From the NCBI RefSeq assembly GCF_013394695.1, contig NZ_CP058258.1:392001-456000 (forward strand): a DNA stretch of 64,000 bases. The letters are read 5' to 3'. The DNA comes from Streptococcus sp. oral taxon 061. Its GTDB lineage: Bacteria; Bacillota; Bacilli; Lactobacillales; Streptococcaceae. The position numbers and the translations under genes were made by a program. Of this stretch, positions 49,321-51,641 are shown piece after piece (within the stretch, counting starts at the first letter, position 1; every line of letters starts with the position of its first letter). The notes beneath the pieces were generated by a model. It searched no databases. It was given only the letters and a program-made list of their open reading frames with translations, and was not told the DNA's origin.

Positions 49321-49453
49321 ATACTTTTCGCCGTGGTGTCAGTTGGTACAAATGATTGTACCAACTGCGGAAAATTTGAGACCTTAGGCTCAAATTTTAG
49401 TCATGAAAGTCCGAAGGACTTTGCTGACGTCCGTCACCACTTCAGAAAAGTAT
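49321..49453 (+). ncRNA. Structured element, copy 1 (between yqeH and yhbY)
   Basis: A 133-nt segment folding as an outer helix with three hairpins. Outer: ATACTTTTC (49321-49329)/GAAAAGTAT (49445-49453) and GTGGTG/CACCAC. Hairpin 1: CAGTTGGTACAA/TTGTACCAACTG, 12 bp, loop ATGA. Hairpin 2: AAAATTTGAG/CTCAAATTTT, loop ACCTTAGG. Hairpin 3: AAAGTCC/GGACTTT, loop GAA. Single-stranded GCTGACGTCCG follows. A homologue lies at 51508-51641. Stems differ between the copies but pairing is kept. It lies inside an operon, so it may act on the mRNA, be processed from it, or mark an insertion. No Shine-Dalgarno of good quality precedes the following yhbY start. Confidence 0.6.
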
Positions 49454-49475
49454 AAAAAACTCTTTTAAAGAAAAT

Positions 49476-49787
49476 ATGTCATTAACATCAAAACAACGTG
49501 CCTTCCTCAACAGCCAGGCACACACCCTCAAACCCATCATCCAAATAGGGAAAAATGGTCTCAACGACCAAATTAAAACTAGCGTCCGTCAAGCACTTGA
49601 TGCCCGCGAATTGATTAAGGTTACTCTCTTGCAAAACACAGATGAAAACATCCACGAAGTAGCTGAAATCTTGGAAGAAGAAATCGGTGTAGACACAGTT
49701 CAAAAAATCGGACGCATCTTGATTTTGTATAAACAATCCAGCAAGAAAGAAAATCGCAAGATTTCTAAAAAAGTTAAAGAAATCTAA
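49476..49787 (+). CDS. yhbY: Ribosome-associated RNA-binding protein YhbY (CRM domain)
   Basis: A 103-residue CRM-domain protein. The N-terminal LTSKQRAFLNSQAHTLKP and the GxxG-like loop (IGKNGLNDQIK) match YhbY, a pre-50S associated factor. The ribosome site is poor (AAAGAAAAT), and the 210-nt gap to yqeH holds structured element copy 1, so translation may depend on that region. Confidence 0.93.
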   Translation: MSLTSKQRAFLNSQAHTLKPIIQIGKNGLNDQIKTSVRQALDARELIKVTLLQNTDENIHEVAEILEEEIGVDTVQKIGRILILYKQSSKKENRKISKKVKEI

Positions 49788-49837
49788 GCATGACGCTCCA
49801 AAAACTGTTTTTACAGAAGACTAAAGGAGATTAGCCT

Positions 49838-50467
49838 ATGGCAATCGAACTATTAACTCCCTTTACCAAAGTGGAGTTAGAGCCAGAAATCAAGGATAAA
49901 AAACGCAAGCAAGTTGGAATCCTAGGGGGGAATTTTAACCCTGTTCACAACGCCCACCTTATCGTGGCGGACCAAGTACGCCAGCAGTTGGGATTGGATC
50001 AGGTTCTGCTCATGCCTGAGTATCAACCGCCTCACGTAGACAAAAAGGAAACCATTCCTGAGCACCATCGTCTCAAAATGCTTGAATTGGCTATCGAAGG
50101 AATCGAAGGTTTAGCTATTGAGACAATTGAGCTGGAGCGCAAGGGTATTTCCTACACCTACGACACCATGAAGCTTCTAACAGAGAAGAATCCAGACACA
50201 GATTACTATTTCATTATCGGTGCCGATATGGTAGACTATTTGCCTAAGTGGTATAGAATTGATGAGTTGGTGGAACTAGTTCAGTTTGTGGGAGTTCAGC
50301 GACCACGTTACAAAGCAGGGACTTCTTATCCAGTCATCTGGGTGGATGTGCCCCTCATGGATATTTCATCCAGTATGGTGCGTGATTTCATTGCCCAAGG
50401 ACGAACACCCAACTTTCTCTTGCCTAAGCCAGTGCTAGATTACATCGAGAAAGAAGGACTTTACTGA
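49838..50467 (+). CDS. nadD: Nicotinate-nucleotide adenylyltransferase
   Basis: A 209-residue nucleotidyltransferase. [19 protein letters not shown] contains the (H/T)xxH-type ATP site, and [16 protein letters not shown] is the C-terminal ISSTxxR-type motif. It converts nicotinate mononucleotide to deamido-NAD. AAAGGAG precedes the ATG. It overlaps yqeK by 1 nt. Confidence 0.96.
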
Positions 50468-51060
50468 TGGCATACCAAGACTATATCAACTGTTCCCGTG
50501 AAGAATTGTTGGAAAAGATGGCGGAGCTTCTACCTGAAAAACGCCTAACCCATTGTCTGGGTGTAGAGCGTGCAGCTATTGAATTAGCTCAACGTTTCGG
50601 TATAGATGTTGAGAAGGCTGGTTTAGCTGGTCTCCTTCATGACTATGCTAAAAAACTGTCAGATCAAGAGTTTCTAGACTTGATTGATCGATATCAACTA
50701 GATCCAGACCTCAAAAACTGGGGTAATAATGTTTGGCATGGTATGGTCGGAATTTACAAGATTCAGGAAGATTTGGATTTACAAGATCCTGAAATCCTAC
50801 GAGCTATTGAAATTCATACAGTAGGAGCGATTCAGATGACGAACCTTGACAAGGTTATCTACGTCGCAGACTATATCGAGCACAATCGTACCTTTCCAGG
50901 TGTGGATCAGGCGCGTGAGATTGCTGAACTATCACTAAATAAGGCGGTAGCTTACGAGACAGCTCATACCGTGGAGCATTTAGCTCATCAGGGATTTCCC
51001 ATCTATCCCCAAACCCTTGAAACCTATAACGCCTATGTGCACTATTTGAAAGAGGACTAA
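50467..51060 (+). CDS. yqeK: HD-domain Ap4A hydrolase YqeK
   Basis: A 197-residue HD phosphohydrolase. [13 protein letters not shown] and [10 protein letters not shown] hold the metal-binding His-Asp pairs, with WHG and EIHTVG further on. Bacillus YqeK splits diadenosine tetraphosphate symmetrically. Coupled to nadD (TGATG) and directly abutting rsfS. Confidence 0.94.
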
Positions 51061-51414
51061 ATGAACGAAAAAGAATTACTAGAACTAGTCGTGAAAGCGG
51101 CTGATGAGAAACGTGCGGAGGATATTCTCGCACTTGACGTACAAGAATTGACCAGCGTGACAGATTACTTTGTTATCACTAGCTCTATGAATAGCCGTCA
51201 GTTGGATGCTATCGCTGAAAATATCCGTGAAAAAGTAGCGGAAGCAGGCTTTAAAGGCAGCCATGTCGAAGGTGATGCAGCTGGAGGTTGGGTGCTACTA
51301 GACCTCGGTGATGTTGTAGTGCATATCTTCTCAGAAGAAATGCGTGCCCACTATAATCTAGAAAAACTCTGGCATGAGGCGGATTCAGTAGATTTATCTG
51401 AAACTCTAGTGTAG
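51061..51414 (+). CDS. rsfS: Ribosome silencing factor RsfS
   Basis: A 117-residue Iojap/RsfS protein. [21 protein letters not shown] and [23 protein letters not shown] are the family core. It binds ribosomal protein L14 and blocks subunit joining when nutrients are short. It starts directly after the yqeK stop. A 450-nt non-coding stretch follows. Confidence 0.95.
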
Positions 51415-51507
51415 AAGATGACTTGAACTTCGGCTGGGAATTGCTTTGAAATTCGACAATGTATTAAGATTATTCTTATTTTTGAGTGAGAAGTGAGAAA
51501 TTATCGA

Positions 51508-51641
51508 GACTTTCCGTTGTGATAAAACTTCTTGAAACAATAATGTTTCAAGAAGTCGGGAGTTTTGAGACCTTAGGCTCAAAACTAAGTCTTGGAACTT
51601 CGAAGAAGGTCGCAGACGTCCGAAATCACCTAAGGAAAATC
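51508..51641 (+). ncRNA. Structured element, copy 2 (between rsfS and the methyltransferase gene)
   Basis: A 134-nt homologue of the element at 49321-49453. Outer helix: GACTTTCC/GGAAAATC (one mismatch) and GTGAT/ATCAC. Hairpin 1: ACTTCTTGAAACA/TGTTTCAAGAAGT, 13 bp, loop ATAA. Hairpin 2: AGTTTTGAG/CTCAAAACT with the identical loop ACCTTAGG. Hairpin 3: GAACTTC/GAAGGTC, one mismatch, loop GAA. GCAGACGTCCG follows. Hairpin 1 shares no sequence with that of copy 1, yet both are perfectly paired. The 93 nt between rsfS and this element show nothing recognisable. Confidence 0.6.

Follow-up and report, generated by a model that had tools for sequence, protein, structure and literature searches.

Related repeats and insertion sequences

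Like the element dealt with below, the pneumococcal BOX and the S. suis BOX-type repeats are dispersed and structured, and their terminal repeats form part of the fold. They are described in PMC3049150 together with RUP and SPRITE, the S. suis BOX-type repeats forming two families. According to the accessible part of that source, BOX occurs at a mean of 122 per S. pneumoniae chromosome and has ends said to resemble ISSpn2, while the E and F modules of S. suis average 115 and 133 nt. RUP is likewise a streptococcal miniature element, for which an IS transposase acting in trans has been proposed, but it differs from the present element by its IS630-Spn1-like ends, its length of about 107 bp and its nature as a simple repeat (PMC3049150). 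Among the insertion sequences, IS1272/TnSha1 of the IS1182 family is reported to insert at hairpins, several of which are terminators, with no primary sequence consensus; in the part of the report available, the insertion is blunt, the hairpin is partly deleted and no target duplication is formed (PMC4923244). SSRC8 of S. pyogenes, finally, has been detected by Northern blot signals and its ends were mapped by RACE; the accessible part of that paper makes no mention of mobility (PMC3675131). By title and abstract, no paper on IS1182-derived MITEs in streptococci was found in the open-licence literature.

The window analysed here is a stretch of 64,000 nucleotides from Streptococcus sp. oral taxon 061. 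Two segments in it, designated E1 and E2, are very probably copies of a widespread, apparently non-coding streptococcal MITE that would be mobilised by IS1182-family transposases at terminator hairpins and whose core would serve as an RNA in cis.

The segments E1 and E2 and their sites

The gene cluster yqeG, yqeH, yhbY, nadD, yqeK and rsfS is present as named in the first-pass annotation; after rsfS come a methyltransferase-like gene, for which no listed model scored above its cut-off, and a nucleotidyltransferase gene. E1 is located between yqeH and yhbY in the same sense as these genes, and its terminal repeats were not recognised. Its structured core spans 49321..49453 on the forward strand (133 nt; covariance-model match 49318-49459) and consists of a two-part outer helix (49321-49329/49445-49453 and 49333-49338/49435-49440), the hairpin P2 (49340-49367), the helix P3 (49368-49370/49431-49433) and the hairpins P4 (49372-49397) and P5 (49400-49428), the latter with the loop GAA. 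To the left of the core, the motif GGTGAGCATGGCGAGCC was read by eye at 49296..49312 of the same strand; it is similar to GGCGAGCGAAAGCGAGCC and GCGAGCGAAGCGAGC, which are found left of the core in other copies, and may be read as a candidate small hairpin with tandem G-A mismatches. E2 is an insert of about 245 bp (51421..51665, forward strand) between the rsfS stop codon and the rsfS terminator. Its core spans 51508..51641 (134 nt; covariance-model match 51504-51648) and is followed by the right terminal repeat AAGACTTTGTCTTCAATTG (51647..51665), while TTTGAAATTCGACAATG at 51445..51461 is a weak match to a possible degenerate left terminal repeat. The terminator-like hairpin with a T run at 51666..51691 is the insertion target of E2; these features all lie on the forward strand.

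The plan common to both segments, that is, an outer two-part helix, three hairpins, the helices and loops and the shared GACGTCCG, was confirmed upon re-reading, as was the perfect pairing of the first hairpin, which is unrelated in sequence between the two (12 bp at 49340-49367, 13 bp at 51527-51556). E1 (49316-49465) folds at -58.8 kcal/mol with a z-score of -7.9 and E2 (51503-51660) at -53.1 kcal/mol with a z-score of -5.9, with 0 of 200 shuffles folding as well in either case. The loop ACCTTAGG, which had been called invariant, is exact in only 44 of 102 family copies, and because of this variation the idea that it could kiss between the two segments is without support. The possibility of a mere end of a protein-coding gene was dismissed: both segments lie outside the named genes, and no 60-codon ORF overlaps E1, though a 77-codon GTG ORF (51486-51719), which looks like a chance one, runs through E2.

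Comparison with 80 named relatives of the nadD region revealed that the E2 site is empty in 54, with the terminator 6-7 nt after the rsfS stop codon, occupied by an E2-like element in four and by another insert in ten; in the remaining 12, no recognisable terminator is found there. E2 is, hence, an insertion downstream of rsfS that is polymorphic for presence and absence. The other insert measures about 103-143 bp and occupies this terminator site (51415-51666 of the window) in L065, L068, L071, L073, L082, L098, L103, L108, L116 and L120; in the copies read, it is bounded by TATAGTCTTTTC...GAAAAGACTATA. Two further segments vary in this region. Among three relatives inspected, L069 and L121 carry a 166-codon ORF (MKTAFIIIDVQNILVETG...) between yqeK and rsfS, which is absent from L070 and from the window. 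After the rsfS terminator and ahead of the methyltransferase-like gene, a segment with imperfect 30-nt inverted arms (51766-51844) occupies 51735-51860; only some of the relatives have it, and in some a further, different insert is found at this place.

Family, element ends and the probable IS1182 partner

BLAST and Rfam RF02616 yielded nine copies in the own genome, of which seven are sense and two antisense to co-directional genes. A covariance-model search of streptococcal genomes had been suggested by the first-pass annotation; the model built from these nine copies, R1, returned the same nine and one weak opposite-strand match from the own genome and found matches in 179 of 197 Streptococcus genomes, with none in the other 18. 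Since the best 16 candidates per genome were scored, copy numbers from this search are lower bounds. In eight named genomes, the count of matches ranges from 1 in S. gordonii, 3 in S. cristatus, 5 in S. sanguinis and 9 and 8 in two S. pneumoniae genomes up to 23 in S. rubneri, 36 in S. australis and 50 in S. parasanguinis. In an order-wide draw, with the best eight candidates per genome scored, 71 of 395 genomes gave matches; outside Streptococcus, these were strong in two genomes of one other genus and weak, single hits in three more. G322 and G512, both from one genus of another Lactobacillales family, hold at least eight element copies each, with best E-values of about 1e-28 and 1e-27.

That the element belongs to the pneumococcal BOX or the S. 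suis BOX-type repeats is quite improbable. It shares with them dispersal, tight folding and related hosts, and the S. suis E and F modules are similar in combined length, but the two S. pneumoniae genomes have only 9 and 8 matches as against a mean of 122 BOX, the figure given in the accessible part of PMC3049150, and this does not fit membership of the pneumococcal family. The two S. suis BOX-type families may overlap with the present one. As to Rfam, the first-pass annotation had not recognised the family. RF02616 (SSRC8_2, Streptococcus sRNA 8) does match both segments, albeit with 45.7 bits for E1 and 63.9 bits for E2 below its gathering cut-off of 72 bits; three of 20 loci scanned (L175, L256, L040) exceeded that score, over model positions 1-281, end to end. 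RF02616 describes the same unit as the element, but is filed in Rfam as an sRNA gene.

A set of 119 copies was compiled from 102 aligned copies and 17 of 26 further matches, the remainder being weak or repeats. The copies are not independent, with G097/G202, G024/G203 and G066/G197 being the same genomes (identical coordinates) and L059-L061, L244/L250 and L290/L296/L299 apparently shared insertions. Several sites recur (own copy counted in, some genomes entered twice): grpE-dnaK with 11 copies matching on both flanks and three on one flank, purD-purE with six, yqeH-yhbY with four, rsfS and glyQ-glyS with three each and metF-pnp with two. In one S. pneumoniae genome (L229), two element copies are arranged in tandem at purD-purE. 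Gaps between genes in sense tandem (49 copies), convergent gaps (42), antisense tandem (23), divergent (2) and unresolved gaps (3) are distributed as expected for an element landing at gene ends.

The complete unit of about 250 bp is composed of terminal inverted repeats, a 5' stretch with the small motif and the core of about 135 nt. The terminal inverted repeats of full units are CAGNNTGNAGACAAA-like and are shared with a streptococcal insertion sequence of the IS1182 family. Young copies, as found in S. parasanguinis and others, have the left end CAGAATGTAGACAAAC and, as reverse complement, the right end CAGATTGAAGACAAAG, so that both sides read CAG..TG.AGACAAA-like, while these ends are not recognised in E1 and the left one is degenerate in E2. 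The right end of G175 differs (CAACTTGAAGAC), and some copies, G175 among them, are without CAG at this end. The end pattern AGAATGTAGACAAAC occurs in 18 of 197 genomes and its backwards-read control in none of the 197.

Upon alignment of the left and right flanks of the miniature copies, 31 of 119 had direct repeats that exceeded the 99th percentile of a control with mismatched pairings (3000 draws, copies with short flanks being skipped); several of the 31 are counted twice, as the same insertion or from the same genome, and the weakest may be chance matches. These repeats measure 14-38 nt and contain a perfect stem of at least 5 bp in 25 of the 31 cases as against 9.8% of random 24-mers, the typical repeat being a terminator-like hairpin such as that of L262 (38 nt, two mismatches). 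The inverted-orientation control is exceeded by 24 of the 119 copies, as is the case for palindromes, and either control by 32. For E1 and E2, neither window copy displays a clear target duplication. The two hairpins that flank the element in L256 and L252 match best in inverted orientation, the terminator loops being inverted between the flanks; a like inversion is seen in L260 versus L265 at apparently orthologous sites, as if palindromes flip. L269 and L275 carry, at the same site beside a hairpin, a core-less pair of about 57 nt made up of the same terminal repeats, with no R1 match there.

The partner insertion sequence was reached by an end search in four genomes and by reading of core-less sites. 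It is bounded by CAGACTGAAGACAAAG...TTTGTCTTCGGTCTG, and encodes a transposase of the IS1182 family (NF033551, 368.9 bits, cut-off 270), of which relatives are found in 64 of 197 genomes at an E-value of 1e-30. At this threshold no relative is found in the own genome, and for this reason the copies there look like orphans. The left ends differ in that the element has TGTAGAC and the IS TGAAGAC. Both ends and flanks were available for 22 of 30 IS loci. Direct duplications abut both IS ends without a gap in 19 of these 22, and in 18 they are 16-38 bp long and contain a hairpin, the reported stem-loop being exactly the whole duplication in 14 of the 18. In L286 and L301 the stem-loop is two to four bases shorter than the duplication, L288 and L302 have imperfect palindromes, and the two duplication copies of L289 differ by one mismatch. 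Only 11 bp are duplicated in L294 and none in L280, L291 and L303. Against the control, 19 of the 22 IS copies exceed the 95th percentile and ten the 99th (22.0), the latter value being inflated by the shared-insertion set L290/L296/L299. The IS1202 family, considered as mobiliser for its long target duplications, was dropped after the IS1182 transposase had turned up; as far as the source is available, its Acinetobacter members have TGT ends, and its long-duplication group is without a specific target (PMC10132070).

The streptococcal IS and IS1272 have in common an IS1182-family transposase and hairpin or terminator targets. They differ in the outcome, as IS1272 is described as blunt and duplication-free in the accessible part of PMC4923244, while the streptococcal IS duplicates the hairpin over 16-38 bp. 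The element itself shows several features of a MITE, being short and multi-copy, with terminal inverted repeats, a target site duplication in 31 of 119 copies and a related autonomous IS1182 with the same ends. It has the IS1182-type habit of inserting at palindromic or terminator hairpins. The blunt, duplication-free insertion of IS1272 does not agree with the duplications of 16-38 bp in 18 of 22 IS copies. Judging from the shared terminal repeats, mobilisation would most likely occur in trans, catalyzed by streptococcal IS1182-family transposases. Such a transposase would recognise a terminator hairpin as target and the element would be joined at the two feet of the hairpin; the duplication is observed, the mode of cutting is a proposal. 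With the hairpin duplicated, the upstream gene would keep its terminator.

These data also bear on the proposal of a non-mobile host RNA family, either cis-regulatory and riboswitch-like or a trans-acting sRNA, whose copies would arise by ordinary duplication. Strong covariation, compensation in place at E1 and the classification of RF02616 as an sRNA, with Northern blot and RACE data for SSRC8 in S. pyogenes (PMC3675131, as far as accessible), would fit such a family. What argues against it is that the terminal repeats also belong to an IS, that targets of hairpin size are duplicated, that sites occur both occupied and empty, that copy numbers run from zero (18 of 197 genomes) to 50 in a single one and that the neighbouring genes are many and different; it is regarded as very unlikely.

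Covariation and possible role of the core

The 102 aligned copies, 96 of them distinct, were aligned with the covariance model and are, thus, biased towards the model structure; in this alignment 94.2% of cells are paired, and both partners have changed in 49 of 53 pairs. The covariation score amounts to 0.581, compared with 0.159 after shuffling and 0.06-0.10 when the partners are slid. The core has a modular build. In L243, L240, L262, L252 and L224, longer alternative modules take the place of P4 and P5, which excludes a universal form of these two hairpins, and the own grpE-dnaK copy folds without the P2 hairpin. P2 is the hairpin that changes fastest; between copies with less than 0.85 identity in unpaired columns, its mean 5'-arm identity is 0.28-0.55, yet it is 95% Watson-Crick paired.

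At the yqeH-yhbY site, 68 of 80 loci hold the element, 67 of them a complete copy and one a copy interrupted by N. The site occurs in two forms, type 1 in 31 loci and type 2 in 36, to which the N case may be added by its appearance; since both are found within S. infantis, the alleles have been exchanged. In L091, type-1 flanks enclose no core, and in 11 of the 80 loci, mostly of sanguinis, gordonii and cristatus, the yqeH-yhbY spacer is unrelated. With L130 and L138 left out, diversity in type 1 (n=30) is 0.026 in the paired core, 0.115 in the unpaired core, 0.171 in the left and 0.094 in the right spacer. The corresponding values for type 2 (n=36) are 0.040, 0.117, 0.121 and 0.274. The diversity of the left spacer thus exceeds that of the paired columns 3- to 6.6-fold. 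Eight pair states are changed on both sides with the pairing kept, next to 20 G-T, 10 A-C and 12 other non-pairing states. In L130 and L138, compared with L065, a different hairpin stands in place of the whole of P2, with the outer helix, P4 and P5 still recognisable. The covarying structure is, accordingly, kept at the orthologous site, which points to selection on pairing at a fixed location. E1 represents an old copy; its ends are no longer recognisable, and its core is kept between yqeH and yhbY.

Perfect hairpins could, in principle, also result from mutation, if template switching at palindromes rewrote one arm from the other. The fast change of P2 at nearly complete Watson-Crick pairing, its complete replacement at an unchanged site (L130, L138) and the inverted terminator loops (L256, L252; L260 versus L265) would be understandable on this basis, but compensation extends to the outer helix, the arms of which are about 115 nt apart, and the paired columns of E1 change less than the spacer instead of more. 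Template switching is, therefore, considered an unlikely source of the pairing.

The first-pass annotation had left the choice between a selected RNA structure and a mobile element containing structured RNA or DNA. Selected structure is supported by covariation and the kept pairing at E1, and a mobile element by occupied and empty sites, ends, duplications and IS1182, so that both parts hold, with RNA or, less probably, DNA as the selected entity. Among 2255 cells of 44 representatives, G-T occurs in 65 and A-C mismatches in 30 (one-sided p 0.0002, not corrected for relatedness). A small FMN riboswitch control, highly conserved and with a structure derived from its alignment, gave nine G-T, no A-C and four other mismatched cells. 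As a test of the strand, the comparison of G-T with A-C is only mildly informative. The core might be maintained as DNA hairpins needed for transposition, for instance for recognition by the transposase or at the replication fork. The location of IS1182 copies at hairpins and the nearly exclusive Watson-Crick pairing (65 G-T in 2255 cells) are in line with this possibility. It is considered less likely, as the core is still constrained in E1, an old copy lacking recognisable ends, and as L269 and L275 share a site with a terminal-repeat pair that has no core.

A role of the core as a co-transcribed, cis-acting RNA is predicted and favoured, because the constraint outlasts the recognisable ends and G-T is the more tolerated mismatch. 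Within operons, this RNA structure would act as a stabiliser of 3'-ends or between genes, or as a processing site. It may tentatively be proposed that the transposase uses the hairpin as a ruler, with a duplication of hairpin length and the terminator kept, and that the covarying RNA, carried as a passenger, has repeatedly been retained as a cis-acting part of the housekeeping operons yqeH-yhbY, purD-purE, glyQ-glyS and grpE-dnaK.

Summarizing, an Rfam family listed as an sRNA gene contains mobile elements, which are present in about nine of ten streptococcal genomes sampled. According to the insertion rule, one hairpin goes in and two come out, with the terminator being preserved; this would explain how the elements can build up next to essential genes and yet leave these intact. 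With its compensatory changes, the long-resident copy between yqeH and yhbY represents a natural experiment on the way in which the folded core of a transposon may become part of a host operon.
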